64,000 nucleotides of DNA from Burkholderia puraquae (GTDB lineage Bacteria > Pseudomonadota > Gammaproteobacteria > Burkholderiales > Burkholderiaceae). A program made the translations under genes and the position numbers. The stretch's first letter is position 1. Every line of letters begins with the position of its first letter. Below are positions 1-43,917 of this stretch, in pieces. Where the stretch lies: positions 248,001 through 312,000 of the forward strand of contig NZ_NBYX01000003.1 in the NCBI RefSeq assembly GCF_002099195.1, given 5' to 3'. The notes beneath the pieces were generated by a model, which saw only the letters and a program-made list of their open reading frames with translations, made no database searches and was not told where the DNA came from.

Positions 1-924
1 AGCGGGATCGTCGGCGCATTTCCGGCGCTCAACGCGCGGCTCAGCGCGCAACTCGGCGACTGGATCGACACGATCGACGGCACGCTGCGTGCGTACCGGG
101 ACGCCCATCCCGATGCGCCGGTCGGCCCGTATGCGGTCAACCACATCTGCCATCCGTCGAATCCGCGCGTCGAACAGGACCTGCGCATCTGCATCGAGCG
201 GCGTGTGCCGCTGATGATCACGAGCCTGCGCGCACCGTCGCGCGACATCGTCGACGCGATCCACGCGTACGGCGGAATCGTGCTGCACGACGTCACGACG
301 GTGCGGCATGCGCAGAAGGCGCTGGAAGCCGGCGTCGACGGCCTCGTTCTCGTCGCGGCGGGTGCGGGCGGCCACGCCGGCACGCTGTCGCCGTTCGCGC
401 TGGTCACGGAAGTACGGCGCTTCTACGACGGCTTCATCGCACTGTCCGGCGCGATCGCGACGGGCGACGCGATCGCCGCCGCACGCGCGCTCGGCGCCGA
501 CTTCGCGTACATCGGCACGCGCTTCCTGGCATCGCACGAAGCAAACGTGGTGCAGCGATACAAGGACACGATCGTCGAAGCCAGCGCCGCGGACATCGTC
601 TATACCGACGCGTTCACCGGCGTCCACGGCAACTACCTGCGCCAGAGCATCGAGGCGGCCGGGCTCGACGCGCGCCGGCTCGCGCGGGTCGACGGCGCGC
701 AGCTCGATTTCTCGCCGGAAGGCGGCGCGAAGCAGTGGCGCGACATCTGGGGGGCCGGCCAGGGCGTCGGCGCAATGGACGCGGTACTCAGCGTCGCCGA
801 GATCGTCGAACGGCTCGCGGCCGAATACGAGCGCGCCGTCGCGCGCGTGCAGCCGGGTGCGGCCGCGCACGTCGCAGCACACCGGCCGGCCGTTTCCTCG
901 ACTTCACGGATCGAAACGCCATGA
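1..924 (+). CDS. Nitronate monooxygenase-like flavoprotein (5' partial)
   Basis: The frame is open from base 1, so the start lies outside the window; about 307 residues are visible. The sequence is the C-terminal part of an NMO/2-nitropropane dioxygenase-type FMN TIM barrel. The family signature around GAGGHAGT, which carries the catalytic His, is present, as are the phosphate-binding GAIATG and IGTRF segments. The family oxidises nitronates, but relatives also act as enoyl reductases or pathway oxidases, so the substrate is not known. The stop overlaps the pheA start by 4 bp (ATGA), so it belongs to the same operon as the shikimate-pathway genes. The last ~20 residues look like a disordered tail. 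Confidence 0.85.
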   Translation, partial: SGIVGAFPALNARLSAQLGDWIDTIDGTLRAYRDAHPDAPVGPYAVNHICHPSNPRVEQDLRICIERRVPLMITSLRAPSRDIVDAIHAYGGIVLHDVTTVRHAQKALEAGVDGLVLVAAGAGGHAGTLSPFALVTEVRRFYDGFIALSGAIATGDAIAAARALGADFAYIGTRFLASHEANVVQRYKDTIVEASAADIVYTDAFTGVHGNYLRQSIEAAGLDARRLARVDGAQLDFSPEGGAKQWRDIWGAGQGVGAMDAVLSVAEIVERLAAEYERAVARVQPGAAAHVAAHRPAVSSTSRIETP

Positions 925-2060
925 CGCCGTCCGAACTTGCCGCCCCGTCGTCCGTCGACGATGCGATCGCACGCCGCCGCGCTCAGATCGACGTGATCGA
1001 CGACGAACTTCTCGCGCTGATCGGCCAGCGCATCGTGCACGCAACCGAGATTGGTCATCTCAAGCGGCATGCGGGGCTCGCGGTGCAGCAGCCCGCCCGC
1101 GAAGCGTCGATCGTCGCCGAGCTGGCCACGCGCGCGCCGTGGGGGCTGCGCGACCGTGACCTGAAGGCCATCTGGCAAACGCTGTTCCGCGCGAGCCGCG
1201 ACGCGCAATCGCTGCCGTGCGTCGCGTTCCTCGGCCCGTCGGGCACCTATACCGAAGCCGCGATGCTGCGGCACTTCGGCGAGTTCGCCCGCGGGCAGGC
1301 ACATGAAACGATCGACGCAGTCTTCGAAGCGCTCGCGCGCGGCGACGCGGAATGCGCGGTCGTGCCGGTCGAGAATTCCTCCGAAGGCAGCGTGACCCGC
1401 ACGCTCGACCTGCTGATCGCGCAAGCGGCACCCGTCACGGGCGAGATCGAGCTGCCGGTCGCGCACTGCCTGCTGAGCGCCAGCGGATCGCTCGCCGGCG
1501 TCGACAGCGTGATCGGCCATCCGCAGGCACTCGCGCAATGCCGCGCATGGCTCGACACGCATGCGCCCGGCCTGCGCCGCATCCCCGTTTCCAGCAACGC
1601 GGTGGCCGCGCGCGAGGCCGCGCACCTGTATGACTGCGCGGCGATCGCCGGCGAACCGGCGGCCGCACTTTACGGACTGCGAATCGTATCCCGCGCGATC
1701 CAGGACCACCCGGACAACCGCACGCGCTTCGTGATCGTCGGCGGCCAGATGCCCGTCCCGACCGGCCACGACCGCACGAGCATCGTGCTGCGGCCGACCG
1801 ATGCGCCCGACGCGCTCGCGCGCGTATTCGATGCGCTCGCCCACCACCGCGCACCGCTGCTGTGGGTCGACGTGCGTCCGGCACGGGCGGCGGGCCATGC
1901 GTATCGGTACTGCATCGATTTCGGCGGGCACCCGCTCGATCCGAACGTGCGCGCGGCGCTCGACGAGATCGCGCTCGCCGCTGCCGAACTGCGCGTCCTC
2001 GGCGCCTATCCGCGTGCCGCAAGCGGCACGGACGCGCACGCCGACGGTATGGCCGCGTGA
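921..2060 (+). CDS. pheA: Bifunctional chorismate mutase/prephenate dehydratase
   Basis: A 379-residue P-protein that converts chorismate to prephenate and then to phenylpyruvate. An AroQ chorismate mutase helix bundle lies at about 15-95. The dehydratase domain at about 98-275 carries PVENSSEGSV (149-158) and the catalytic TRF motif (268-270). An ACT domain follows at 283-365. The ACT effector motifs are altered: DALA (297-300) stands where GAL(V/L) is usual and WVDVRP (315-320) where ESRP is usual, which suggests weak phenylalanine feedback (inference). The ATG at 921 overlaps the upstream stop, which is why I chose it over a longer in-frame extension. It is probably a pathway-dedicated paralogue of the housekeeping pheA. 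Confidence 0.93.
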   Translation: MTPSELAAPSSVDDAIARRRAQIDVIDDELLALIGQRIVHATEIGHLKRHAGLAVQQPAREASIVAELATRAPWGLRDRDLKAIWQTLFRASRDAQSLPCVAFLGPSGTYTEAAMLRHFGEFARGQAHETIDAVFEALARGDAECAVVPVENSSEGSVTRTLDLLIAQAAPVTGEIELPVAHCLLSASGSLAGVDSVIGHPQALAQCRAWLDTHAPGLRRIPVSSNAVAAREAAHLYDCAAIAGEPAAALYGLRIVSRAIQDHPDNRTRFVIVGGQMPVPTGHDRTSIVLRPTDAPDALARVFDALAHHRAPLLWVDVRPARAAGHAYRYCIDFGGHPLDPNVRAALDEIALAAAELRVLGAYPRAASGTDAHADGMAA

Positions 2061-2731
2061 TGACGACGGTCCCCGCTTCGTCCCGCGTCGCCGCCCGGCT
2101 GCTCGCGATTCGCGACGGTCGCGACGATCGCCTGCTCGTGCTGTGCGGCATCGCGTCGGCGGGATGCTTGCCGCTCGCCGCCGGACGATGGCTGCGCGCG
2201 CTGCGCGCCGAATACGACGACGAACTGGAATTGCTGCCGTTCGTGCGCGGCATGCCGGACGCCGCCGACACCACGTGCCTGCTGCGGCGCTGCGCGCGTC
2301 TCCAGCTTCCGGCGGTAGCGATCGGCGACACCGCGGCAACCGCCTACGGCCGCTGGCGCGCCTGCCTGCCCGCAGCGCCGCTGACCTGGCGGGTGCTCGA
2401 ATCGGCAGCGGCACGGCCCGCAGCACCGCTGCCCGGCGGCCTGCTGGCGCGCTGGCCGGCACGCCAGGCCGAGCCGGTCGACTGGCCGCGCTCGCGCCGC
2501 GTCGTCGCCGATCTCGGCGCTGCGTCGCCGGCGCTTGGCGCCCGGATCGGCGCGCTCGCCGACGCCCTGTACGACGGCACGCTCGTCATCGCCGGCATTG
2601 CGCTGGACACCGCCCCTGGCGCGCCTCACACCTTCATCACCGATGCACTGGATCCGCTCGCCAACTTCGTCCGGATGCAGCGGATCGCTGCCGTGACACG
2701 TCGCGCCCCGTCGCTGCGGAGCCGCCTGTGA
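2060..2731 (+). CDS. Degenerate DAHP synthase-like protein, probably non-catalytic
   Basis: A 223-residue protein overlapping pheA by 1 bp and aroK by 4 bp. It aligns by eye with type I DAHP synthase, including the aroG product of this window. Residues 22-63 match the first barrel strand region (DDRLLVLCG against DDRLALIVG), and 146-213 match the C-terminal barrel (RRVVADL against YVVIDAS; TLVIAGIALD against RAIVGVMIES; FITDAL against SITDAC). The middle is compressed, giving 223 residues instead of ~350. The catalytic GPCSIHD reads GIASAGC, and the KPRTT, SHGNSGK and IES residues are absent. It cannot plausibly catalyse the aldol reaction. A regulatory or scaffolding partner of AroG or AroK is an inference. 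The homology itself is a reading by eye and needs a profile search. Confidence 0.7.
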   Translation: MTTVPASSRVAARLLAIRDGRDDRLLVLCGIASAGCLPLAAGRWLRALRAEYDDELELLPFVRGMPDAADTTCLLRRCARLQLPAVAIGDTAATAYGRWRACLPAAPLTWRVLESAAARPAAPLPGGLLARWPARQAEPVDWPRSRRVVADLGAASPALGARIGALADALYDGTLVIAGIALDTAPGAPHTFITDALDPLANFVRMQRIAAVTRRAPSLRSRL

Positions 2732-3252
2732 GCCCGCGCTCGCAGGCCGGCCCGACGCGCATCGCGCTCGTCGGGATGCCCGGCGCCGGCAAGACGACCC
2801 TCGGCTGCGCACTGGCCGGCGCGCTCGGGTTGCCGTTCGTCGACGCCGACCGCGAACTCGAACGCCGCTTCGGTGCCCCCGTCGCGGCGCAATTCCATGC
2901 GGGCGACTTCCGCGCGCGTGAAGCCGACGTCATCGACGCGCTGACGCGCGGGCCAGCGCTCGTGCTCGCGACCGGCGGCGGCGCGGTGCTGCGCGACGAT
3001 ACACGCGCCCGGCTCGGCCAGCGCTGTTTCGTGATCCATCTCGCGAGCGATCTCGACACCCTGTGGCGCCGCACGCGCGACGACGCGTCCCGCCCGCTGC
3101 TGAACGTCGCCGACCCGCGCGCGGCGCTCGCCGCGCTGCACGACGCGCGCGAATCGCTGTACCGCGCATGCGCGCACTGCCGCATCGACACATCAGGCCA
3201 GTCCGTCGCACAAACGCTCGCGGCAGCGCTCGACGCGCTTGCGATGGCGTAA
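2728..3252 (+). CDS. aroK: Shikimate kinase
   Basis: A 174-residue kinase that phosphorylates shikimate at the 3-OH using ATP. Visible motifs are the Walker A GMPGAGKT (16-23), the shikimate-binding DADRE (39-43) and FRARE region (61-65), the GGGA loop (83-86) and the lid motif SRPLL (121-125). The length is normal for the family. It starts with GTG, whose G overlaps the upstream TGA, so translation is probably coupled to the DAHP-synthase-like gene. As the last gene before the efflux operon, it supports the view that this operon raises flux through the shikimate pathway for a dedicated product. Confidence 0.93.
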   Translation: MSPRSQAGPTRIALVGMPGAGKTTLGCALAGALGLPFVDADRELERRFGAPVAAQFHAGDFRAREADVIDALTRGPALVLATGGGAVLRDDTRARLGQRCFVIHLASDLDTLWRRTRDDASRPLLNVADPRAALAALHDARESLYRACAHCRIDTSGQSVAQTLAAALDALAMA

Positions 3253-3403: not shown

Positions 3404-4849
3404 ATGCCCTTCCTCATCGACCGAGCGCGCGGCTCCCACCGCCTGGTTCCCGCGCTCGCCGCGCTCGCGATCGCCGGCTGTGCGCCGTTCGGCTCGCAAC
3501 GCCCGGCGGCCCGGATGACGCCCGTCGAGCAACTCGATGCGGGCGCCGCGATCCACGCCGCCGGCGCCGGCACGCCGACGATCGCCGAACGCTGGTGGAC
3601 CGCGTTCGGCGATGCGCAGCTGGATCGCCTCGTCGACGATGCCCTGGCCGGCGCACCGACGCTGCAAGCGCAGCGCGAACGCGTCGCGCAGGCGCTCGCC
3701 GACGCCGACGTCGAAAGCGCCGCACTGCTGCCGCAACTCGGCGCGACGGTGAGCGCCGTGCCGACGCGCCTGCCCGGCAGCTACCGGACGCCGCCGCCCG
3801 CGGCCGGGCACTGGCAGGTCGACGCGCAGGCGCTCCTCGGGGCATCGTGGAATCTCGACATCGCCGGCCGGCAGCACGCGCTGGCGCGGGCCGCCGCGCT
3901 GCGCGCGGACCAGCAGCGCGCGCTCGAGCACGCGGCCGCCGTGTCGCTGCAGGCGGCGATCGTCGAAACCTATCTGCAGCTCGTGCTCGAACAGCAACTG
4001 CTCGCGATCTCGCGCGATACGCTGCAGCAACACAGCTATCTGCTCCGCCTCACGTCGCAACGCGCCGACGCCGGTCTCGACATGCAGGTCGCCGTGCTCA
4101 GGGCGAGCGAACCCATTCCGCACGCGCAGGCCGACATCGACACGCATGCGGCCGCATCGGCCCGGCTGCGCCACCGGCTCGCCGCGCTCGTCGGCCGGGG
4201 GCCCGGTTACGCCGATGCCCTGACGCCGGCCGCGCCGCCCGCCGCCGAGCTGCCGATGCCGGCCGTCCTGCCCGCGGCGCTGATCGGCCGCCGGCCGGAC
4301 GTACTGGCCGCGCGCTACCAGGTCGAAGCCGAAGCGGCGAACATCGACGCGGCGCGCGCCGCGTTCTATCCGGACGTCAACCTGATGGCCTTCGCCGGCG
4401 TGCAGAGCTTCGGCTTCCGTGCACTGTTCCACGGCAACAGCGGCACGTTCGGCGCGGGCCCCGCGATCACGCTGCCGATTTTCGAGGGTGGCCGGCTGCG
4501 TGCCGGCCTGCGCGCGCAAACCGCCGCCTACAACGCCGCCGTCGCGGTGTACGACGACACGGTCGTCAACGCGCTTGCACAGGTGAGCGACACCCTCGTC
4601 CAGATCGACACGCTCCGCCGGCAGCGCGCGCTTCAGCGCGAGGCGCTGTCGCGCGCGCAACAAACCTACGCCGTCGAAACGCAGCGCTACCGGAAAGGCA
4701 TCTCCGGCTACCTCGACGTCCTGCTCGCCGAAGGCCGGCTGCTCGAGGATCGCGCATCGGTCGCCCGTGCGGACGCGTCGTTCGCGATCGAGCACGCCCG
4801 CCTGATCGCCGCGCTCGGCGGCGCCACTTCCACTGGAGTCACGCAATGA
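3404..4849 (+). CDS. OprM/NodT-family outer-membrane efflux lipoprotein
   Basis: A 481-residue outer-membrane channel of the TolC/OprM class. The lipoprotein signal ends in AIAGC with the acylated Cys at 26. Two outer-membrane-factor repeats follow, including the family-typical LIGRRPDVLAARY stretch and the second-repeat LPIFEGGRL. The length is normal. The start at 3404 was chosen because it gives a proper lipoprotein signal; longer extensions run into the promoter. Its stop overlaps the start of the adaptor gene (ATGA), so the three pump genes form one operon. It should trim to an exit duct for the MFS pump encoded two genes downstream. Confidence 0.92.
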   Translation: MPFLIDRARGSHRLVPALAALAIAGCAPFGSQRPAARMTPVEQLDAGAAIHAAGAGTPTIAERWWTAFGDAQLDRLVDDALAGAPTLQAQRERVAQALADADVESAALLPQLGATVSAVPTRLPGSYRTPPPAAGHWQVDAQALLGASWNLDIAGRQHALARAAALRADQQRALEHAAAVSLQAAIVETYLQLVLEQQLLAISRDTLQQHSYLLRLTSQRADAGLDMQVAVLRASEPIPHAQADIDTHAAASARLRHRLAALVGRGPGYADALTPAAPPAAELPMPAVLPAALIGRRPDVLAARYQVEAEAANIDAARAAFYPDVNLMAFAGVQSFGFRALFHGNSGTFGAGPAITLPIFEGGRLRAGLRAQTAAYNAAVAVYDDTVVNALAQVSDTLVQIDTLRRQRALQREALSRAQQTYAVETQRYRKGISGYLDVLLAEGRLLEDRASVARADASFAIEHARLIAALGGATSTGVTQ

Positions 4850-6045
4850 ACCGTCCCGAATCCCCCGCCGCCGAGCCGTCGCTGCAACGCGCGCGCCGGC
4901 GCTACTTCCGCTGGTTCTTCATCGCACTCGCCGGTGCCGCCGGCATCGGCGTCGCCGCGTGGGCCACCACGCGCGGCACCGAGACGACCGACGATGCATA
5001 CGTGTCCGGCGACGTCGTGCAGATCTCGCCGCAGATCGGCGGCACCGTCGACGCCGTGCGCGTGCAGAACGCCGACTGGGTCGGTCCGGGCGACCTGCTC
5101 TTCAGCGTCGACAAGACCGATGCGCGGCTCGCGCTGGACGAAGCGGTCGCCCAGCTCGCCCACGCGGTGCGCGAATACCGCACCGCGCATGCGGACGCGG
5201 CGCGCGAGGAAGCGCAGATCCGGCTGCGGCGTGCCGAATGGTCCAAGGCGAATGACGACCTGCAGCGCCGGCAGAGCCTCGCACCGGACGGCGGCGTGTC
5301 GCGCGAGGATCTTCGCCATGCGCGGGATGCGATGGACGGCGCGACGGCCGCGCTGAACGCGCAGCAGGCCGCCTACGACGCGACGCTCGCGCACACCGAC
5401 GGCACGTCGATCGACACGAACCCGCTCGTGCGCGCGGCGGCATCCCGGGTCCGCAGCGCGGCGCTCGCGCTGCGCCGCACCGAAATCCGCGCGCCGCTCG
5501 GCGGGCTCGTCACGCGCCGGGTCGTGCAGGTCGGCCAGCACGTCTCGCCCGGCACGCCGTCGATGGCGCTCGTGCCGCTCGATCACGTGTGGGTCGAAGC
5601 CAACTTCAAGGAATCGCAGCTGCGCGGCATGCGCGCCGGGCAGCCGGTCGAGCTGTTCTCGGACCTGTACGGCAGCGACGTGGTATTCCACGGGCGCGTC
5701 GTCGGGCTCGAAGCCGGCACGGGCGCCGCCTTCGCGGCCGTGCCCGCACAGAACGCGACCGGCAACTGGATCAAGGTCGTTCAGCGCGTGCCGGTCCGGA
5801 TCGCGCTCGACCCCGCCGAGCTGCGCGCGCACCCGCTACGCATCGGCCTGTCGATGACGGCATCGGTGCCGGTCGAACACGGCCGCGGCACCGCATCGGC
5901 GTCGCCGTCCGCCCGTCCGCCCGAAGTGCGCAGGTCGATCGACGCCACGTCGATCTACCGTGACGACGACGAAGCGGGCAATGCGCTCGTCGCCGAGACG
6001 ATTCGCGCGAACAGCGGCGTGCGCCCGCTCGCACCGGGAGCCTGA
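4846..6045 (+). CDS. EmrA/HlyD-family membrane-fusion protein
   Basis: A 399-residue periplasmic adaptor. It has a short cytoplasmic N-terminus, one membrane helix at about 22-42 and the TTDDAYVSGD motif typical of EmrA-type proteins. A split lipoyl/barrel-sandwich domain flanks an alpha-helical hairpin at about 95-190, and a beta-barrel segment contains WVEANFKE. It connects the inner-membrane MFS pump to the outer-membrane channel. The C-terminal ~50 residues are charged, low complexity and probably disordered. It overlaps the upstream gene by 4 bp and ends 2 bp before the pump gene. Confidence 0.93.
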   Translation: MNRPESPAAEPSLQRARRRYFRWFFIALAGAAGIGVAAWATTRGTETTDDAYVSGDVVQISPQIGGTVDAVRVQNADWVGPGDLLFSVDKTDARLALDEAVAQLAHAVREYRTAHADAAREEAQIRLRRAEWSKANDDLQRRQSLAPDGGVSREDLRHARDAMDGATAALNAQQAAYDATLAHTDGTSIDTNPLVRAAASRVRSAALALRRTEIRAPLGGLVTRRVVQVGQHVSPGTPSMALVPLDHVWVEANFKESQLRGMRAGQPVELFSDLYGSDVVFHGRVVGLEAGTGAAFAAVPAQNATGNWIKVVQRVPVRIALDPAELRAHPLRIGLSMTASVPVEHGRGTASASPSARPPEVRRSIDATSIYRDDDEAGNALVAETIRANSGVRPLAPGA

Positions 6046-6047
6046 CG

Positions 6048-7586
6048 ATGCCCTTTTTCGCCCGGAACGCGGCACCGAAACTGCCGCTGGAGCCGCTCGC
6101 CGGCATGCCGCTGGCGCTCGTCGCGATCGCGGTCAGCGTCGCGAATTTCATGCAGACGCTCGACCTGACGATCGCGAACGTCGCCGTCCCGACCATCGCG
6201 GGCGATCTCGGCGTCGCGCCCGACATGGGCACCTGGATGCTGACCTCGTTCGCGACGCCGCTCGCGATCACGCTGCCGCTCACCGGCTGGCTCACGCAGC
6301 GCTTTGGCCAGGTGCGGCTGTTTCGCCTGTCGGTGCTGCTCTTCGTGCTCACGTCGGTCCTGTGCGGGATGGCGCCGAACTTCGAGTCGCTGCTGCTGTT
6401 TCGCGCGCTTCAGGGCGCCGCGTCGGGCCCGATCACCGCGCTGTCCCAGGCGCTGCTGATGGCGGTGTTCCCGTCGACGCGCCGCCACGTCGCGCTGGCC
6501 GTGTGGCAGACCACGACGTTCGTCGCACCGGTGCTCGGACCGATCGCCGGCGGCTGGATCACCGACAACCTGAGCTGGCCGTACATCTTCTACGTGAACG
6601 TACCGCCGGGCGTGCTCGTGCTGGGCGTACTCGCGCGGCTGCTGGCGGGACGCGACAACGCGACGCGGCGCCTGCCGGTCGACGTCGTCGGGCTGCTGTT
6701 GCTCACCGCCGCGTTCGGTTCGTTCCAGCTGCTGCTCGATCGCGGCCAGAACCTCGACTGGTTCGCCTCCGGCGAAATCCGCGGGCTGGCGGTCGTGGCG
6801 GTCGTGTCGTTCATCGCGCTGATCCTCTGGGAGCTGACCGACGACCATCCGATCGTCGACCTGCGGCTGTTCGCGGACCGCAACTTCTCGACGAGCACGC
6901 TCGCGATCACGGTCGGCTTCGGGCTCTACTTCGGTGCGCTGGTGCTCGTGCCGCTGTGGCTGCAGACCCAGCAGGGCTACACCGCCACCTGGGCCGGCAT
7001 CGCCACCGCGCCGCTCGGCGTCGCGGGGATCGTGATCGCGCCGCTGCTCGGCCGCTTCCAGGGCCGCACCGACCCGCGCCTGCTCGCAACCGTCGCACTC
7101 GTCGGCTGGGGCGCCGCATCGTTCTGGCGCATGCATTTCAACACCGACGTGACCCTCGGCGACATCGCCGCCAATTCGCTGCTGATGGGCGCCGCCACCG
7201 CATTCTTCATCACGCCGCTCGTGTCGCTTTCGCTCGCCGGGCTGCCCCGCGAGCGGCTGCCCGCGGCATCCGGGTTGCAGAACGCGCTGCGACGGATCGG
7301 CACCAGCGTCGCGACTTCGGTCGCGCCGACCTACTTCGAACGCCGTTCCCGCGTGCACAACACCTATCTCGTCGACCACATCACGCCGTACGATTTCGCG
7401 TCCGGCGACTGGTTCGCGCGGCTCGATCATGCGGGGCTGTCGCCGGCCGGTGCGCTTGCATCCGTCTCGCACGCGATCGACGTCGAAGCGCACATGCTCG
7501 CGCTGAACGACTTTTCGTTCGGCTGCCTGCTGCTGTTCGGCGCGACGCTGCTGACGGTCTGGTCGATCCGCTACCGCCACGCATGA
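6048..7586 (+). CDS. DHA2-family (EmrB-like) MFS drug exporter
   Basis: A 512-residue protein with about 14 hydrophobic segments. It carries the 14-TM family motif LDLTIANVAVP near residue 35, the motif-C-like GPIAGGWITD and the PPG loop after TM6. It is a proton-driven exporter of small hydrophobic or aromatic compounds. With the preceding adaptor and outer-membrane lipoprotein it forms a complete tripartite pump. Its position between two aromatic-biosynthesis operons suggests that it exports the cluster's product or gives self-resistance; that role is inferred from context. Confidence 0.93.
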   Translation: MPFFARNAAPKLPLEPLAGMPLALVAIAVSVANFMQTLDLTIANVAVPTIAGDLGVAPDMGTWMLTSFATPLAITLPLTGWLTQRFGQVRLFRLSVLLFVLTSVLCGMAPNFESLLLFRALQGAASGPITALSQALLMAVFPSTRRHVALAVWQTTTFVAPVLGPIAGGWITDNLSWPYIFYVNVPPGVLVLGVLARLLAGRDNATRRLPVDVVGLLLLTAAFGSFQLLLDRGQNLDWFASGEIRGLAVVAVVSFIALILWELTDDHPIVDLRLFADRNFSTSTLAITVGFGLYFGALVLVPLWLQTQQGYTATWAGIATAPLGVAGIVIAPLLGRFQGRTDPRLLATVALVGWGAASFWRMHFNTDVTLGDIAANSLLMGAATAFFITPLVSLSLAGLPRERLPAASGLQNALRRIGTSVATSVAPTYFERRSRVHNTYLVDHITPYDFASGDWFARLDHAGLSPAGALASVSHAIDVEAHMLALNDFSFGCLLLFGATLLTVWSIRYRHA

Positions 7587-7989: not shown

Positions 7990-8301
7990 TCAACGCGGAT
8001 CGCTGGCGACCGGCACGTATCCTTCGGCGAGGATGCCGGTCGTCCGGGCGGCCGGCTCGCGCAGCAGCTTCGCCGCCTGATAGCCCTCGGACCGGTACCA
8101 CGCGCGGGCGCGCTCCGCCGATTCGAATTCGAGCACGACGACGCGCTTCGGCGACCAGTCTCCTTCCAGCGTTTCGACTTCGACGCCGCGCACCAGGAAG
8201 CGCCCGCCGTACTCGGCCACCGTCGGCGCGCCGAGCCGGCGGTACGCCTGGTATGCGTCGACGTCGTGCACGTCGATATCGAACACCACGTACGCGCTCA
8301 T
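7990..8301 (-). CDS. DUF1330 family protein
   Basis: A 103-residue ferredoxin-like alpha/beta-barrel (dimeric) small protein beginning [13 protein letters not shown], with the family's RAxxWYxSxEY-type segment ([11 protein letters not shown]). DUF1330 proteins have no assigned general reaction; related EthD/ABM-fold proteins act as small oxygenases or accessory factors. It is the last gene of the Rieske operon, and its ATG overlaps the ferredoxin stop by 4 bp, so it probably acts on the same aromatic compound. Its function is not known. Confidence 0.8.
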
Positions 8302-8648
8302 GACCGTGCCTCCGCCGGCGCCGCCGCATCGGCCGCCGCAAGCTGCACGAACACGCGGCCGTTCTCGATCTTCACCGGATAGGTACGCACGCACGTCGTC
8401 AGCGGCGCGCACAGCGCAATGCCGGTCCGCACGCTGAAGCGCCCCTGATGCAGCGGGCACTCGATCTCGTCGTCGAGCAGGAACCCATCGCTCAGCCGCG
8501 CGTCGCCGTGCGTGCACTGGTTCTCGGTCGCAAAAATCTCGTCGCCGACCGCATACAGCGCGATGTCGCGGCCGCCCACCCAGACACCGAGTATTCCGTC
8601 GGTGCGCACCGCTTCCGGCGCGACCGCGTCGATCCAATTCGTCGTCAC
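8298..8648 (-). CDS. Rieske-type [2Fe-2S] ferredoxin (NagAb-like)
   Basis: A 116-residue electron-transfer protein. The cluster ligands are CTH (C45, H47) and CPLH (C64, H67), 16 residues apart as expected. It resembles NagAb/naphthalene-dioxygenase ferredoxins (TTNWIDAVA start, [19 protein letters not shown] end). I chose the GTG start at 8648 because it matches the family N-terminus and is preceded by GAGG; it follows the beta-subunit stop by 14 bp. It should pass electrons from a reductase to the oxygenase encoded upstream. No reductase gene is visible in the window. Confidence 0.9.
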
Positions 8649-8662
8649 TTTCTGCACCTCGC

Positions 8663-9190
8663 TCAAACCGGGAAAATCAGCGAATTCGGAATCATCTCGC
8701 TGTCGTAGACGCAGATGCGCGACTCGAAACGCAGCCCCTGCGGCGTACGCACGATCCGGTCCAGGTAGCGCCCGGTGTTGTAGACGTCGCTCATCTGCTC
8801 GGTCTTCGTGCGAAGCACCGCGTAGTTGGTCTCGGCCTCGATCACCGTGTCGTCGAGATACGTGACGAGCGGCAGCCCGATCACGTGGCGCTGGTAGTAC
8901 GGATCGAAGAACAGCGTCTCCTTGATGCCGTAGACACGATCCTTCAGCATGCCCTTGCTCTCGAAGTCCATCACCGCGAGCGGCAGGTTGCGCTCGTGGT
9001 TCTCGCGCGGCACCACCGTGTACCGGCATTGCTCGACGAAGAATTCCGGCCACGCGTCCCAGTCGCCGCCGTCGAGCACGGCCGCATACCGTGCATTGAG
9101 CTGGACGAGCGCGTAGAAATCCTCGAAGCTCGCGCCGCCCTGGTGCGGCTCGGCGGCCGGCCGGCCCGTTCGTGTCGTGATCGTGCTCAT
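8663..9190 (-). CDS. Aromatic-ring-hydroxylating oxygenase small (beta) subunit
   Basis: A 175-residue SnoaL/NTF2-fold beta subunit resembling NagH-type subunits. Typical segments are [19 protein letters not shown] near the start, [16 protein letters not shown] and a C-terminal [18 protein letters not shown]. It gives structural support to the catalytic alpha subunit in the alpha3-beta3 hexamer and has no metal site. The ATG directly abuts the alpha-subunit TGA, which indicates translational coupling and equimolar production. Confidence 0.92.
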
Positions 9191-10450
9191 TCAGGCCTCC
9201 ATCACTTGGCGCCAATACTGGTACATGCCGCGCACCAGCGTTTCACTGACCATATGGTCGGTTTGCTCGTCGACCTGCCGGCCGCCGAGTTCGTTGTAGA
9301 CGTTGCCGTGCTGGATCTGCTCGAAACTCTGCTGCACGCATTCGATGACTTCGCCATCGTCCGCCGACACGAAGCCGGCCGGCCCGAACAGATTGGCCTG
9401 GCGCAGACGGCGCCGCGTCATCTCTTCGGTGTCGGTCTCGAAGCCGAAATGCGTCCATACGTAGTCGAACACGCCCGGGCTGACCGGCCGGATGCGCCGC
9501 GTCGACAGTGCATTGACCTGCTGCTGGATGATGACGCTCGGCATCAGCGTGAGCATCACGACGGTCGGATCGCCCCACCACGGTTCGTGCACGACATCGA
9601 GGAAGCGGTCGTCGTTCAGCGTCATGCGCTCCTTGAAGCTCGTCACGTTGTGGGTCACTTCGCCGCCGCCGCCGCCGCTGCGGATCGACACCATCGCGCC
9701 GTGCCGGTGATGCTCGTCGGTCACGAGCTTCGCGGGATTGTCCGCGCGCCACAGGCCGAAATTGACGAACCAGGTATGCAGCAGCCCCGCGTGATAGGGA
9801 TCCTTGATGTTCTCGACCATCAGCTTCCAGTTGCTCGGCACGCGCTGCCGCGTGTAGCCGAGCACGGTCAGCTTCGGGCCGTGGAACAGGCGATCGTAGT
9901 AAGGCAGGATGCGCGGCCCGAGGAAGTCCTCGAACGATTCGACATTCTCGTCGAACGACGCGAACACCGCGCCGCCGCGCGTCGATACGCGCAGGCGCCG
10001 CAACGCATGCTTGCCCGGATCGAAATCCGCCGGCATGCCGCCGTTGATCGTGCCGCCCTGACGCACGCCGCGCCGGAACGGCACGCCGATCAGGTTGCCC
10101 TTCAGGTCGTAGTTCCACTGGTGATAAGGGCAGTGGAAATCCTTCGCTTTCCCCGAACGTTCGCGGCAAAACTGCATGCCGCGGTGCGCGCACGCATTTT
10201 CGAAGACGACGACTTCGCCGTCCTCCGTGCGCGTCATCACGACGGAACGCTCGCCGACCTCCGTGCGCTGGAAATCGCCGGGAGACGGCACTTCGGCTTC
10301 AAGGCCGATGTAGCACCAGTGATTCGCGTAGAACAGGCGCTCGAGTTCGCGCTGATACAGCGCTTCACTCGTGTACGCCTCGTACGGCGTGCGGCTGGCG
10401 CCGTCGCCTTTCCAGTCGAGCGCGCGGGCGATGTCGATGGGTGAGTTCAA
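9191..10450 (-). CDS. Rieske oxygenase large (alpha) subunit, salicylate-5-hydroxylase (NagG)-like
   Basis: A 419-residue catalytic subunit. The Rieske cluster ligands are C87/H89 and C107/H110. The mononuclear iron site is in DPYH-AGLLH (H220, H225), with the bridging Asp at 217. Stretches such as [19 protein letters not shown] and [16 protein letters not shown] follow the NagG pattern as I recall it, so a hydroxylated or carboxylated aromatic ring is the likely substrate. The start is a TTG at 10450 with a perfect AAGGAG five bases upstream; the in-frame upstream extension overlaps aroG and lacks the family N-terminus. In context it probably hydroxylates the pathway product. The exact substrate is not determined. 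Confidence 0.92.
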
Positions 10451-10461
10451 GAGAGCTCCTT

Positions 10462-11568
10462 TCAGTAAGAAACAGCCTGCAGCGCAACGGCGGCGCCGTG
10501 CGCGATGAAGCCGGCTGGCGAACGCCGCCGCGCAACCACCGCGGCAGCCAACTGCTCGACGAGCTCGGCTGTGTGATCCCAGCCGAGACATGCGTCGGTA
10601 ATGCTTTGGCCGAACACCGGTGGCGTGCCCGGCACCACGTCCTGCCGCCCCTCGACGAGGAACGACTCGATCATCACGCCCACGATGGCGCGCTCGCCGC
10701 GATGCAGTTGCGCGGCGAGATTGCCGCAGACATCGATCTGCGCGCGCGTCTGCTTGCCGCTGTTGCCGTGGCTCGCGTCGATCACGACATACGGGGGGAG
10801 ATGCGCGTCGCGCAGCGCGGCGCAGGCTGCCGCAACGCTCGCGGCGTCGTAGTTCGGGGTCTTGCCGCCGCGCAGGACGACATGCGTGTCGGGATTGCCG
10901 GGCGTGGTCGCTATTTCCACGCCGCCGGAAACGGACGGTCTCAGGTAGCAGTGCGAAACACGCGACGCGCGGATCGCGTCGATCGCGACCTTCACGTTGC
11001 CGTCGGTACCGTTCTTGAAGCCGACCGGCAGGTCGAGCCCCGACGCCGCCTGGCGATGGATCTGCGATTCGGTCGTCCGGGCGCCGATCGCGCCCCAGGA
11101 TACGAGGTCGTCGAGATACGGCGCGGTCATCGGATCGAGAAACTCCGTCGCGGCCGGCAAGCCCAGCGCGTTGATGCCGAGCAGCACCTTGCGCGCCACG
11201 CGCAGGCCGTCCTCGATCCGGAAACTGCCGTCGAGATACGGATCGTTCAACAGTCCTTTCCAGCCGACCGTGGTGCGGGGCTTCTCGAAATAGACGCGCA
11301 TCACGATCTCGAGCACATCGGCGTACCGCTCGCGCAGCGGCGCGAGCCGGCGCGCGAACGCCAGCGCGGCCTCTGCGTCATGGATCGAACACGGGCCGAC
11401 GATCAGCGCAAGCCGATCGTCCTCGCCCGCGATGATCTGCGCCAATGCACGCCGCGCATCGCCGATCGAGCGTGCCAGGCCGGGATCGCGTGGCAATTCG
11501 GCGCGCAACCGCTGCGCACTGATCACCGCCACGCCTTGCGTCAACGCTGCCTCAACGGATTTTTCCAT
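10462..11568 (-). CDS. aroG: 3-deoxy-7-phosphoheptulonate (DAHP) synthase, type I
   Basis: A 368-residue enzyme condensing PEP and erythrose-4-phosphate, the first step of the shikimate pathway. All core motifs are intact: GPCSIHD (58-64), KPRTTVGWKG, ARTTESQ, RGGKTPNYD, DASHGNSGK and GVMIESFLVEGRQ. The length fits the AroF/G/H family. It is the first gene of a minus-strand operon with the Rieske oxygenase (11 bp gap), so it is co-expressed with a tailoring enzyme rather than with housekeeping aro genes. Which amino acid, if any, inhibits it cannot be read here. Confidence 0.95.
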   Translation of the reverse strand: MEKSVEAALTQGVAVISAQRLRAELPRDPGLARSIGDARRALAQIIAGEDDRLALIVGPCSIHDAEAALAFARRLAPLRERYADVLEIVMRVYFEKPRTTVGWKGLLNDPYLDGSFRIEDGLRVARKVLLGINALGLPAATEFLDPMTAPYLDDLVSWGAIGARTTESQIHRQAASGLDLPVGFKNGTDGNVKVAIDAIRASRVSHCYLRPSVSGGVEIATTPGNPDTHVVLRGGKTPNYDAASVAAACAALRDAHLPPYVVIDASHGNSGKQTRAQIDVCGNLAAQLHRGERAIVGVMIESFLVEGRQDVVPGTPPVFGQSITDACLGWDHTAELVEQLAAAVVARRRSPAGFIAHGAAVALQAVSY

Positions 11569-11774: not shown

Positions 11775-12215
11775 ATGACAAGAAAATATTTTGAAACCAG
11801 AATCGACGTGAAATATCGGGAGACGGACGCAATGGGCCACGTGAGCAGCCCGGTCTATTACGATTATCTGCAGCATGCATACCTGACCTACATGCACGAT
11901 CTGCTCGAACTGCCCTATTCGGAAAAGCTGCCGCACATCATGGTCAAGACGTCGTGCGAGTATCTGAAGCCCGCCCAGTACGGCGATACGATCACGGTCC
12001 GCAGCAGCGTCACGCGCTTCGGCTCGAAGAGCTTCGAACTGGAATACCTGATGGTGCGCGACGCGCAGGCGGCCAGCGAGAATTCGGACGACGATCAGGC
12101 GGTGGTTGCGCGGGCCGTGTCCACGCACGTGATGTTCGACTATGGCAGCAAGACCACGGTGCCGGTGCCGGAAGAGTTCAGGACGCGCGTGCTGTCGTTC
12201 CAGGGCGCGATCTGA
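11775..12215 (+). CDS. Hotdog-fold acyl-CoA thioesterase (4HBT/YbgC type)
   Basis: A 146-residue single hotdog domain with the 4-hydroxybenzoyl-CoA thioesterase pattern YRETDAMGHVSSPVYYDYL near residues 15-33, where an Asp acts in related enzymes. It hydrolyses acyl- or aryl-CoA thioesters. A good AAGGAG ribosome site lies 7-8 bases upstream. It is transcribed divergently from the aroG-Rieske operon across a shared regulatory region. In this cluster it may release a CoA-bound aromatic intermediate, which would fit a phenylacetyl-CoA-derived product; that is inference. Confidence 0.88.
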   Translation: MTRKYFETRIDVKYRETDAMGHVSSPVYYDYLQHAYLTYMHDLLELPYSEKLPHIMVKTSCEYLKPAQYGDTITVRSSVTRFGSKSFELEYLMVRDAQAASENSDDDQAVVARAVSTHVMFDYGSKTTVPVPEEFRTRVLSFQGAI

Positions 12216-12775: not shown

Positions 12776-13690
12776 CTAGCGGGCGTTCGCATCGGCAACG
12801 CGTGGCGCGCAGATATTGCGCACGCAATCGCGCAGCCATCGATGCGCGGGGTCGCGATCGAAACGCGGGTGCCAGATCTGCGAGACGGTCAGGTCTGCGA
12901 TCGGCACCGGCAGCGTAAAGCTGTGCATGCCGACGCGGGACCGCTCGGTCTGCCGCTCCGGCACGCTGGCGACGAAGTCCGAGCCGCGCGCAAGCGAGAG
13001 CGCGGTCGGGAAGCTCGACACGACGGTGGTCACCGAGCGCGCGATGCCGAGGGAATTGAGCAGCGTATCGATCGGCCCGTTGAACTGCCCGCGGCGCGAC
13101 ACGCCCACCTGCGGAAACGACGCGAAGCGCTCCGGCGTCATTTCGCCGGACGCCAGCGGATGATTCGCGCGGACCACGCCGATGAAGCGGTCGCGAAACA
13201 GCGCCTGCACGCGCAACTCCGGGCCGGCCTGGCCGATCACGCCGACCTCGAGATCGATGTCGCCATTGCGCAATGCGTCGACATGCTTGTTGGGTTTGGG
13301 TGCGAAGCGCAGCCGCACGTCGGGTGCCGTACCGGACGCGTGCTCGAGCAGCGCCGGCGCAAACGTCTCGACGAACGCCTCGTTCGCGCGAATCGAGAAC
13401 GTGCGCTTGAGCGTACTCATGTCGACCCGTTCGCACGGGCACATGACCGATTGCGCCTCCACAACGAGCGCATGCACCCTGTCGCGCAACTCGAGCGCGC
13501 GCGGGGTCGGGACGAGGTCCCGCCCTGCCCGCACCAGCAACGGGTCTCCCGTCATCACCCGCAACCGCGCGAGCGAGCGGCTGAGTGCGGACGGGCTGAG
13601 GCCGAGCGCGTTGGCCGCGCCCACTACGCTGTTCTCGGACAGCAATGCGTCCAGAACGACAAGAAGATTGAGGTCGATGGAAGTCGCCAT
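12776..13690 (-). CDS. LysR-family transcriptional regulator
   Basis: A 304-residue regulator: winged HTH at about 3-62 (DLNLLVVLDALL, AANALGLSPSALSRSLARLR) and a periplasmic-binding-protein-like effector domain at 90-300. The HTH style (DPLLVRAGRDLVPTPRA) is that of the NahR/NodD-like branch that senses aromatic compounds. The start at 13690 was chosen from the usual family N-terminus. It ends the aromatic cluster and probably controls it, but its target sites cannot be fixed from the sequence alone. Confidence 0.88.
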   Translation of the reverse strand: MATSIDLNLLVVLDALLSENSVVGAANALGLSPSALSRSLARLRVMTGDPLLVRAGRDLVPTPRALELRDRVHALVVEAQSVMCPCERVDMSTLKRTFSIRANEAFVETFAPALLEHASGTAPDVRLRFAPKPNKHVDALRNGDIDLEVGVIGQAGPELRVQALFRDRFIGVVRANHPLASGEMTPERFASFPQVGVSRRGQFNGPIDTLLNSLGIARSVTTVVSSFPTALSLARGSDFVASVPERQTERSRVGMHSFTLPVPIADLTVSQIWHPRFDRDPAHRWLRDCVRNICAPRVADANAR

Positions 13691-14569
13691 GATGCGCCCA
13701 TGCTGTACTGTCGGGACCGGCCGGCCGATGGGCCAACGGCATCGTGCCTCGAGCGCAGGTGCTCCGTGATCGCGATATACCGGAAATCGGCAGTCGCGCC
13801 GCCGAGCCTGGCGCACGATCGTGCGTCCGCCTGAGAGGCGTGCCGTGAATGGCGGGGAGAATTTCTGCCGCTGAGAAAATCCGCTGCGGATTTATTGCAC
13901 TTGTGAACGATTGTGCACCGCGTTGCAACAAACCGCAACCCGACTCGACGGATATTCGGTTTAAATGAAACGATGCGCACGAATGAACAATAAAACAAAC
14001 CGATTCCATTGCGTCGATCCGCGAATCGCGCACGCAAACCGGCCGGCCGATGAAGCAGAGCCCGCCGCAGCAAGCCTGCGCCGGCCTCACCAGCCCCTGC
14101 GCGAGCGCCCGCCGGCACGGCTTCCGCGCAAAGTACGGCACGTTCTGCGCACCGGGACTGAATACCAGAACTTTTAAACTCTTCTATTGACTTTCACACC
14201 GACATTCCGCTTTGACGGTCAATCGTTTCACAAAACAAATCTGGATCGGATGATTCGCGTATGTCTCTCCGCCATCCGGGAAAATCCGTTTGATTGCCCG
14301 GCCCGCCCCTTTTCTCGACTCGATCGGCATTTCACGAAAATTCGGCCGGCGCGATGTATCCGGACGAGCGGTATGTGCGTCAAACCTGCAACCGCTTCGC
14401 CCGTTTCTCGTTGCGCGTGTCGATCCGGCGGACGGCCAGGGCCACGCGTCCAACGGCACGCCGTCCCGGCACCCGTTCCCGGCCAACCCGATCCTGCATT
14501 ACCATCGTGCGTCCGCCGCAGTTGCCCGCTTGCCGCAAGCAAGCCCAGCCACTTCCCCGTCCCGCACCC
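13691..14569. other. Long intergenic region between the LysR and TauE/SafE genes
   Basis: About 880 bp with an AT-rich core around 13,850-14,350. It must hold the divergent promoters of the LysR regulator and the permease. Several short open frames exist, but none has convincing codon bias or a recognisable product. I see no RNA gene. Confidence 0.4.
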
Positions 14570-37227: not shown

Positions 37228-38196
37228 TTACTTTCCAGTGGACGCACTCTGTTCGCCCACGTACTTCCACTGGAAGCTGAAGGGGTCCACGCCCCGGTCC
37301 CCCGGCAGGTTCGGCAGTGAATCCCCTTCCTTGACGAACACTTCGTAATAGCCGCCGAGCCGTTCGATGCTTTTGCCCGTCGCGGCCCAGTAGCCGGTCT
37401 TTGGCGCGTAGTCACCCGGACGGGCGTACGGCAGCGCGGGGACCTGCGTACGGGCATCCACTTCGCCGAGGAATTCAATGTGCCGCCCCTCACGCACTTC
37501 TTCATCGGTCGGCTTGTAGACCCTGAAATAGAGGCGGTTCGACGGCGCGTTGTCAGTAATCGGGTACATCATCCTGCCTTTGCCCGTATCGGTACGGTCC
37601 AGAACCTCGCGCACGTCGATCCAGTCGAGCTGGGTTTGCCAGTAGACGACTTCGTAAATGTGTGTGCCCGTAAGAAACTGGGTATTCAAGATCACAAATT
37701 CGTCTGCAACCTCGCCTACCCATTTCTCCTTTGCCTTCATCACATAGGTAGATCGCTTTATATCTTCGTCCCGGGGAGCGGCGACATAAGGCTCGATGTC
37801 ACGGTGTTTGGGCGGGGCAGGCAGAACCTCCTTACCCTCGGAATATAGCCGCATCATCGGACCATCCGGCGTGGGCTTGCCTGTTGTCTTAACGTCCCCA
37901 TCGCTCGGATTTATGTATGTGGTGTAGTACCGTATTTTTACACTGTCATTACGCACAATTGCGTCATGAAACCTGATCTGCGTGATCAGCGGATTCTTGA
38001 CCCAGGTTACCCGCTCAATCGGCACGACGCCCGTCTGGTTTCCACTTTGCTTGTCGGTCATAGAACTTTTCGTAGTTTGGTTCGAAGGCGGCGCCGCTTG
38101 CTGTTCCGCAACGGACGAGCAGCCGACCAGTGCCACCATCCCTCCAATCGAAATAATGGCGCGAACGCCGTTCATTGTCAGACGGTCAGGTTTCAT
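37228..38196 (-). CDS. Candidate T6SS immunity lipoprotein, tandem copy 4 (distal)
   Basis: A 322-residue lipoprotein with the lipobox ALVGC (acyl Cys26) after a short signal, then a periplasmic domain of no family I recognise. The N-terminal ~70 and C-terminal ~140 residues are almost identical to those of the other three copies; the central part differs (KIRYYTTYINPSDGDV type, like the copy at 39324). The position downstream of a periplasm-acting effector suggests an immunity role (inference). The start at MKPDRLT, rather than 13 codons upstream, was chosen because in the copy next to the effector this ATG overlaps the effector's stop. The C-terminal end reads SASTGK instead of SAAAGK. Confidence 0.8.
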   Translation of the reverse strand: MKPDRLTMNGVRAIISIGGMVALVGCSSVAEQQAAPPSNQTTKSSMTDKQSGNQTGVVPIERVTWVKNPLITQIRFHDAIVRNDSVKIRYYTTYINPSDGDVKTTGKPTPDGPMMRLYSEGKEVLPAPPKHRDIEPYVAAPRDEDIKRSTYVMKAKEKWVGEVADEFVILNTQFLTGTHIYEVVYWQTQLDWIDVREVLDRTDTGKGRMMYPITDNAPSNRLYFRVYKPTDEEVREGRHIEFLGEVDARTQVPALPYARPGDYAPKTGYWAATGKSIERLGGYYEVFVKEGDSLPNLPGDRGVDPFSFQWKYVGEQSASTGK

Positions 38197-38275
38197 CCTT
38201 CGCGCTCTCGATAAAAAATGCAATACTTTCGGCATTAGCTAATGCCCTGTTGGGCGTGAACTCGGCGAGTACCCG

Positions 38276-39244
38276 TTACTTTCCAGCGGCGGCACTCTGT
38301 TCGCCCACGTACTTCCACTGGAAGCTGAAGGGATCCACGCCCCTGTCCCCCGGCAGGTTCGGCAGTGAATCCCCTTCCTTGACGAACACTTCGTAATAGC
38401 CGCCGAGCCGTTCGATGCTCTTGCCTGTCGCGGCCCAGTAGCCGGTCTTTGGCGCATAGTCACCCGGACGGGCGTACGGCAGCGCGGGGACCTGCGTACG
38501 GGCATCCACTTCGCCGAGGAATTCAATGTGCCGCCCCTCACGCACTTCTTCATCGGTCGGCTTGTAGACCCTGAAATAGAGGCGGTTCGACGGCGCGTTG
38601 TCAGTAATCGGGTACATCATCCTGCCTTTGCCCGTATCGGTACGGTCCAGAACCTCGCGCACGTCGATCCAGTCAAGTTGCGTATGCCAGTAGACCATCT
38701 CGTAAACGTGCGTGCCGGTGAGGAACTGGGTATTCAAGATTACAAATTCGTCTGCAACCTCGCCTACCCATTTTTCCTTTGCCTTCATCACATGAGTAGA
38801 TCGCTTTATATCCTCGTCCCGGGGAGCCGCGACATAAGGCTCAATGCCACTGTACTTAGGCGGGGCAGGCTTAATCTCATTGCCCCCCGAATACAGCCGC
38901 ATTGCAGGACCATCAGGTGTCGGTTTACCAGTCCATTTAACGTCCTGTTTACTTGGATTGGTATAAGAAAGGTAGTACCGAATTTTAATGCTATCGTCAC
39001 GTACGATTGCGTCATGGAACCTGATCTGGGTGATCAACGGATTCTTGAACCAGGTTACCCGCTCATTCGGCACGACGCCCGTCTGGTTTCCACTTTGCTT
39101 GTCGGTCATAGAACTTTTCGTAGTTTGGTTCGAAGGCGGCGCCGCTTGCTGTTCCGCAAGGGACGAGCAGCCGACCAGTGCCACCATCCCTCCAATCGAA
39201 ATAATGGCGCGAACGCCGTTCATTGTCAGACGGTCAGGTTTCAT
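38276..39244 (-). CDS. Candidate T6SS immunity lipoprotein, tandem copy 3
   Basis: A 322-residue copy with lipobox ALVGC. Its central section starts KIRYYLSYTNPSKQDVKW, like the effector-proximal copy, but then reads NEIKPAPPKYSGIEPY and KRSTHVMKAKEKWVGEVADEF like the others, so it looks like a mosaic. Preceded by a 91-bp remnant of the effector 3' end (39,234-39,324). Same spacing (1,048 bp) as its neighbours. Function inferred as for the other copies. Confidence 0.8.
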   Translation of the reverse strand: MKPDRLTMNGVRAIISIGGMVALVGCSSLAEQQAAPPSNQTTKSSMTDKQSGNQTGVVPNERVTWFKNPLITQIRFHDAIVRDDSIKIRYYLSYTNPSKQDVKWTGKPTPDGPAMRLYSGGNEIKPAPPKYSGIEPYVAAPRDEDIKRSTHVMKAKEKWVGEVADEFVILNTQFLTGTHVYEMVYWHTQLDWIDVREVLDRTDTGKGRMMYPITDNAPSNRLYFRVYKPTDEEVREGRHIEFLGEVDARTQVPALPYARPGDYAPKTGYWAATGKSIERLGGYYEVFVKEGDSLPNLPGDRGVDPFSFQWKYVGEQSAAAGK

Positions 39245-39323
39245 CCTTTGCGCTCTCGATAAAAAATGCAATACTTTCGGCATTAGCTAACGCCCTGTTG
39301 GGCGTGAACTCGGCGAGTACCCG

Positions 39324-40292: not shown

Positions 40293-40371
40293 CCTTTGCG
40301 CTCTCGATAAAAAATGCAATACTTTCGGCATTAGCTAATGCCCTGTTGGGCGTGAACTCGGCGAGTACCCG

Positions 40372-43882: not shown

Positions 43883-43917
43883 GAGGCACGGTTCCTTGAT
43901 GGAATAAGCGGCAGGCG

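Follow-up and report, generated by a model that had tools for sequence, protein, structure and literature searches.

A shrunken, predicted non-catalytic homologue of DAHP synthase kept under purifying selection in tropolone-type gene clusters of Burkholderiaceae

How much carbon flows into aromatic compounds is determined by DAHP synthase, and the feedback control of this enzyme is a standard obstacle to producing them. Regulatory pseudoenzyme subunits with demonstrated interaction include HisZ (with HisG), plant PDX1.2 and the AdoMetDC prozyme. The DAHP synthase of M. tuberculosis is of another type than type I.

Putative TdaE-containing clusters with shikimate genes have been reported in B. 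plantarii and B. cenocepacia (PMC8283759, section 5), and DAHP synthase and prephenate dehydratase are named as possible precursor boosters in the tropolone clusters of Burkholderia, Trinickia and Pseudoduganella (PMC11481866, section 10). A second, dead DAHP synthase is not mentioned in these two sections, and a search of the open-licence PubMed Central literature for a pseudoenzyme DAHP synthase (DAH7PS) or an inactive paralogue found no description. Here we describe such a candidate, a mini-DAHP-synthase homologue (pseudo-DAHPS), in a 64,000-nucleotide stretch of the Burkholderia puraquae genome, hereafter the window.

Fold and active site of pseudo-DAHPS

Taken singly, the window protein had no match in Pfam, its PDB match was marginal (E = 0.038, residues 14-60) and it scored 11.4 bits against the NCBIfam aroFGH model (TIGR00034), below the curated cut-off of 173.2. 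A first protein search returned 13 proteins, the window's own and others including Burkholderia and Trinickia; since the named homologues bear the labels hypothetical or uncharacterized and the window protein goes unrecognised by Pfam, the family is easily missed. In contrast, a profile built from an alignment of 14 divergent members and run against the PDB matched E. coli AroG (E = 3.3e-12) over N- and C-terminal blocks, and all 21 distinct sequences among its matches there up to E = 10 were DAHP synthases. Searched against 5.8 billion proteins (7993 candidates scored), the profile found 53 proteins at E <= 0.01, of which 31 carried PF00793; the remaining 22, without a Pfam domain, were members of the family or fragments of members. 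Profile-profile comparison with 11 AroGs gave a probability of 97.7% (E = 1.4e-12), and a local repeat with hhalign gave 98.0%, against at most 0.5% for 20/20 column-shuffled AroG profiles and 3.4% for the reversed profile.

The predicted structure agreed, the DAHP-synthase fold being found there as in the profile search: for each of two models, all of the best 50 matches listed were DAHP synthases. A preliminary description of the window had aligned two blocks of the protein with the start and end of the barrel; such blocks do appear in the profile match, but the homology is wider, the structural alignments spanning AroG from residue about 30 to 350. A chance resemblance might be argued from the marginal single-sequence match and from the long alignments that Foldseek itself made to DAHP synthases, which are loose (rmsd 8-12 A, TM-score 0.36-0.58), but the strength of the profile match, the uniform structural matches and above all the shuffled and reversed profile controls rule it out, and we give it practically no weight. 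Profiles and models together identify pseudo-DAHPS, in its predicted fold, as a type I-alpha DAHP synthase barrel that has been reduced to 223 residues from about 350.

Its residues 30-36 read GIASAGC where the AroG counterpart is GPCSIHD, a substitution already pointed out in the preliminary description and evident from both sequences. The further claim made there, that the PEP/phosphate, metal and catalytic motifs are erased, also stood, as none of the 11 AroG positions examined (E. coli numbering), which we take to be metal, PEP or E4P ligands or active-site residues, is matched. In the alignment with the AroG profile, which is uncertain in the variable middle, six are replaced (C61->A32, R92->F61, E143->I88, R234->P125, H268->A154 and E302->D183, the last by a similar residue) and five are unaligned or deleted (K97, R99, R165, K186 and D326). 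A TDA of the window protein can be aligned with the TDAC of AroG, which brings a D near D326, but that D is not retained in relatives.

The ends of the protein differ as well. Pseudo-DAHPS has no N-terminal extension, residue 3 of the model aligning with residue 30-32 of the bacterial solved enzymes; in Neisseria and related enzymes such an extension helps, along with a hairpin, to form the tight dimer and the Phe site (PMC4735112, passages on these elements). The amino-acid-site hairpin of the solved enzymes appears to fall in an unaligned gap. At the other end, a conserved basic tail takes the protein about 15 residues further than E. coli AroG; in the second model this tail prolongs helix 8 (residues 201-235), with confidence dropping to 55 at its end.

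Two loops are the most conserved elements across the 14 members, GRDDR ahead of strand 1 with a mean JS of 0.70 and YxDE ahead of strand 2 with 0.69; strands 8, 1 and 2 (0.60-0.62) and helix 8 (0.58) come next. These two best-conserved loops, a0-b1 and a1-b2, sit on the face opposite the catalytic one, whose loops are poorly conserved (mean JS 0.35-0.47) and hold no family-wide conserved polar residue among the 14 members. Polar residues D22, R24 and E57 are invariant and D23 and R208 nearly so, all of them located ahead of strand 1, where strand 2 begins or within helix 8; W110 of the barrel is invariant in 14/14 members. This pattern suits binding better than catalysis, although it is a trend rather than a rule because the other two opposite-face loops (JS 0.40 and 0.47) and helices 2, 3 and 7 (0.42-0.45) are equally poor.

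Cluster setting, distribution and selection

The gene is closely packed between its neighbours (Table 1). Its ATG shares the A of the stop codon of the chorismate mutase/prephenate dehydratase gene (CM-PDT; TGATG), with an alternative start, GTG, at 2057, and its stop overlaps the GTG start of aroK (GTGA, 2728-2731); the coordinates are as given in the preliminary description, which had the gene translationally coupled to pheA and aroK. Upstream of the window lies a putative gene of the TdaE kind, followed by the nitronate monooxygenase-like gene, CM-PDT, pseudo-DAHPS, aroK and a three-gene efflux set, whose membrane-fusion protein and major facilitator transporter are presumably EmrA-like and EmrB-like. 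Divergent from this operon lie AroG, the Rieske dioxygenase, the ferredoxin and the DUF1330 gene, and then the TdaD-like thioesterase and the LysR regulator; the intact aroG that had been reported in a sister operon is thereby located, with its motifs present.

Table 1 Features of the window cluster and of a second cluster in the same genome; positions are those of the window unless a locus is named
Feature	Position	Strand	Basis
Nitronate monooxygenase/FabK-like flavoprotein	1..924; whole gene L004:15551-16924, 5' part outside window	+	Pfam PF03060
Bifunctional chorismate mutase / prephenate dehydratase (CM-PDT)	921..2060	+	Pfam PF01817 + PF00800
Mini-DAHP-synthase homologue (pseudo-DAHPS), 223 aa	2060..2731	+	Profile, structure models, alignment, dN/dS
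Shikimate kinase (aroK), GTG start	2728..3252	+	Pfam PF01202
Outer-membrane efflux protein	3404..4849	+	Pfam PF02321; conserved cluster gene
Membrane-fusion protein	4846..6045	+	Pfam PF00529, PF16576, PF13437
Major facilitator efflux transporter	6048..7586	+	Pfam PF07690
DUF1330 protein, start provisional	7990..8297	-	Pfam PF07045 in frame 7990-8637; conserved in relatives
Rieske-type ferredoxin	8298..8675	-	Pfam PF00355
Ring-hydroxylating dioxygenase beta subunit	8663..9190	-	Pfam PF00866
Ring-hydroxylating dioxygenase alpha subunit (Rieske)	9191..10441	-	Pfam PF00355 + PF00848
Cluster DAHP synthase AroG, catalytic motifs intact, N-terminal DDxRI segment absent	10462..11568	-	Sequence motifs
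TdaD-like thioesterase	11775..12215	+	Pfam PF13279; conserved in relatives
LysR-type regulator, start provisional	12776..13816	-	Pfam PF00126 + PF03466
Second tropolone-like cluster, sulphur-type (TdaE homologue, AroG, aroK, TdaD-like, pseudo-DAHPS, PLP enzyme, GST, glutamate-cysteine ligase)	L003:11055-14168 and L086:1-12724, contig C24		

The gene two places upstream of CM-PDT (L004:14299-15447) has acyl-CoA dehydrogenase domains, as TdaE does, and from these domains and its cluster it is a putative TdaE. The TdaD thioesterase and the precursor genes (DAHPS, PDT) expected of tda clusters from PMC11481866 are present. The cluster resembles the Gram-negative tropolone clusters and its predicted product is of that type; the biosynthetic cluster in which a conserved, DAHP-synthase-derived protein without catalytic residues had been suspected, and is now borne out, would be a tropolone (tda) cluster. 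Elsewhere in the window, a VgrG-like gene (Phage_GPD and gp5 domains; 43918-46140, minus strand) is followed by an 849-residue ORF that matches no Pfam family and by a tandem of four lipoprotein-like ORFs (335-336 residues), three of them 91-93% identical to one another and the fourth 55-56% to those; judged by eye, this region (37228-46140, minus strand) resembles a type VI secretion effector accompanied by immunity-like genes in repeated copies.

The same genome holds a second pseudo-DAHPS on contig C24, of 215 aa and 30% identical to the window protein, which sits between aroK and a TdaD-like gene and has an AroG of its own and a TdaE homologue 15 kb away. Between it and TdaE lie an efflux set, a glutathione S-transferase, a Cys/Met PLP enzyme, an HpcH/HpaI aldolase-like gene and a glutamate-cysteine ligase, a gene set that appears to fit the sulphur-containing type described for B. 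cenocepacia (PMC8283759, section cited above). The genome thus has two tropolone-type clusters, each pairing one pseudo-DAHPS with one AroG.

A survey of 398 Burkholderiaceae genomes for TdaE (matches at E <= 1e-70) gave 37 loci in 30 genomes, and 33 pseudo-DAHPS genes in 26 genomes were found among the matches listed, 32 of them at E up to 1.2e-7 (a gene split over two contigs counted as one) and one more, in G126, by the better profile; weaker rows were taken as AroG frames or noise, and two of them (L030, L032) read as AroG. Among 399 genomes of the order, pseudo-DAHPS genes at E <= 1e-8 occurred in the B. puraquae genome only, the other 18 matches covering profile positions 5-117 of 243 in frames of 362-447 aa, as AroG would give. 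The preliminary description had asked whether homologues always accompany the cluster, and largely they do, a pseudo-DAHPS lying within 16 kb of TdaE at 30/37 loci, but three clusters of genus g20 do without and one copy is an orphan. The seven TdaE loci lacking it are four of genus g25, without AroG or PDT matches nearby, and the three of g20, which have AroG and PDT and therefore indicate that pseudo-DAHPS is not universally required. Conversely, 3 of the 33 copies among the matches listed have no TdaE nearby: one (G038) is on a contig of 12 kb whose start falls within the next cluster gene, one (G297) is split over frames in 3.2 kb read, and the orphan (G097) is an open 231-aa frame with an altered tail near which, among the genes sought, LysR alone was found.

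Two groups of these loci merit description of their own. The g20 clusters (L092, L093, L094) combine TdaE, AroG and PDT with glutamate-cysteine ligase and efflux genes, have no pseudo-DAHPS match and offer a natural comparison for its function. The g25 loci (L088, L089, L090, L091) carry TdaE homologues 56-58% identical and 0 shikimate genes in the 20 kb read, and therefore possibly belong to a different pathway.

Pairwise dN/dS values (NG86, against the window gene) of pseudo-DAHPS were 0.17-0.26 in 4/4 close Burkholderia and 0.48-0.62 in 4/4 distant relatives, hence below 1 in 8/8 comparisons. The corresponding close and distant values were 0.14-0.21 and 0.35-0.44 for CM-PDT, 0.13-0.25 and 0.31-0.33 for AroK (two distant pairs), 0.05-0.10 and 0.21-0.27 for AroG, and 0.12-0.16 and 0.25-0.29 for TdaE (three distant pairs), so that pseudo-DAHPS evolves faster than AroG yet is clearly constrained. 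This faster rate, the one copy of 33 among the matches listed that is split over frames (L026) and the one that is an orphan with an altered C-terminal tail (L028/L053) would be expected of a decaying pseudogene carried in the operon; that reading is ruled out by the dN/dS values, which among close species are like those of CM-PDT and AroK, and the frame is open in the clusters read, so that we consider decay very improbable. At the level of coding sequence, purifying selection keeps pseudo-DAHPS as a component of tropolone-type clusters.

Candidate partners and roles

Surroundings were read for 25 of the 33 loci, that is, all except seven type-B loci and that of G297. AroG was present in 21/25, the four without it being two at contig ends (L042, L050), the orphan (L053), and L051, with an open pseudo-DAHPS and no AroG in the 56 kb read, whose genome (G130) has another cluster with AroG. 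CM-PDT or PDT lay directly upstream in 19/25 loci, missing in five type-B loci and in L053; at these junctions the start of pseudo-DAHPS overlapped the stop in 17/19 and followed it by 2 bases in 2/19. Presence therefore favours AroG, then CM-PDT, and adjacency favours CM-PDT. The position between pheA and aroK noted in the preliminary description holds in the window but not as a rule in relatives, where AroK was found in 15/25 loci; being absent from 9/25, with a contig end in one more, AroK is an unlikely constant partner.

The cluster AroGs have a peculiarity of their own. The B. puraquae genome has four aroFGH-type synthases; DDVRI is found close to the N-terminus of the two encoded outside the clusters and is lacking from the two cluster ones. 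The DDxRI segment was absent in 14/14 AroGs examined from clusters with pseudo-DAHPS (21 found) and present in a second AroG of G183. From this absence the cluster AroGs may be insensitive to feedback. Since the segment was also missing in 3/3 AroGs from clusters without pseudo-DAHPS, its loss is not explained by pseudo-DAHPS, and we rejected it as a signature of the clusters that carry the gene. Extra C-terminal tails of cluster AroGs likewise occur in both groups of clusters; within a subtype these tails are conserved, types A and C sharing A(V/I)SY and type B having PLLACCA, for example.

Pseudo-DAHPS is probably a helper subunit rather than an enzyme, and for its being a non-catalytic partner subunit of the cluster AroG we see about an even chance. 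It would then associate with the cluster's own AroG, the gene that accompanies it most consistently, through its conserved segments, namely the DDR loop that precedes strand 1, the beginning of strand 2 and helix 8 together with the extra basic C-terminal tail, and would raise or deregulate carbon entry into the shikimate pathway towards phenylpyruvate and phenylacetate for the tropolone, while the translational overlap with CM-PDT would match its supply to the first dedicated step. The presence of AroG in 21/25 loci, with contig ends and a clusterless orphan accounting for three of the four misses, argues for this partnership, as do the one-to-one pairing in both B. puraquae clusters, the conservation of the opposite-face rather than the catalytic-face loops and the gained tail; the Phaeobacter PaaZ copy with a predicted dead domain gives a precedent for a non-catalytic paralogue (PMC8283759, PMC7497051, passages on this copy). 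Against it stand the three g20 clusters, which have AroG and PDT but no pseudo-DAHPS and whose AroGs lack DDxRI all the same, the locus L051, and the fact that pseudo-DAHPS directly follows CM-PDT and not AroG.

That last point is what recommends CM-PDT, whose chorismate mutase pseudo-DAHPS might activate or which it might hold in a channelling complex: CM-PDT or PDT is the immediate upstream neighbour in 19/25 loci read, and M. tuberculosis chorismate mutase is more than 100-fold more efficient when complexed with DAHP synthase (PMC4281200, abstract). We nevertheless find this partnership rather unlikely, as 5/5 type-B loci read (12 type-B in total) have pseudo-DAHPS and no CM-PDT match in the region read, and the matches in L049 and L051 cover 278 and 265 of 379 residues, so that the mutase domain may be absent there. 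A new role without AroG, whether in sensing small molecules, in handling tropolone or in catalysis at a different active site, strikes us as equally doubtful. The middle of the protein varies between subtypes and is partly conserved within type A, so that subtype-specific chemistry or binding is possible, W110 never varies, and the gene occurs in clusters with and without sulphur-type genes; but the catalytic-face loops lack any polar residue conserved throughout the family, and the invariant and near-invariant polar residues lie away from them. Carrying the AroG partnership further, we tentatively put forward a DAHP synthase pair in which an AroG without the N-terminal feedback segment works with a dead, shrunken subunit, obligate or activating, that would free chorismate supply from amino-acid feedback; this extended form we regard as possible but less than likely.

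Comparison with known systems

A dead paralogue that occurs separately in two tropolone-type clusters of the B. puraquae genome, and in the majority of such clusters across the family, suggests that these pathways have a component that has gone unrecognised. Were it to modulate AroG, it would be, within the open-licence papers searched, the first pseudoenzyme subunit described for DAHP synthase, and a true pair of AroG and dead subunit would mean that specialised-metabolite clusters control entry into the shikimate pathway by a new principle.

Among described proteins, the type I-alpha DAHP synthases (AroG/AroF/AroH; TIGR00034, PF00793) are closest: pseudo-DAHPS is homologous to them over most of its length, with the same barrel order, and retains GxDDRL, the LE at strand 2 and RR at the end of helix 8, where the window protein has QR, but it is about 130 residues shorter, has all of the 11 active-site positions replaced, unaligned or deleted, lacks the N-terminal regulatory extension and has an extra C-terminal tail. 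Like PaaZ2 of the Phaeobacter tda cluster, it is paralogous to a precursor enzyme, has a domain predicted to be dead and is kept inside a tropone cluster; in PaaZ2, however, one domain (aldehyde dehydrogenase) is thought dead and the hydratase retained, according to the same passages of PMC8283759 and PMC7497051, whereas pseudo-DAHPS is wholly without catalytic residues. The complex of DAHP synthase and chorismate mutase in M. tuberculosis resembles the arrangement considered here in that a DAHP synthase activates another shikimate enzyme (PMC4281200, same abstract), but there the synthase is active, whereas pseudo-DAHPS is a dead type I relic for which such a complex would be hypothetical. 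As a dead paralogue boosting an active relative or partner, pseudo-DAHPS would act like HisZ, PDX1.2 and the AdoMetDC prozyme, in a family unrelated to theirs.
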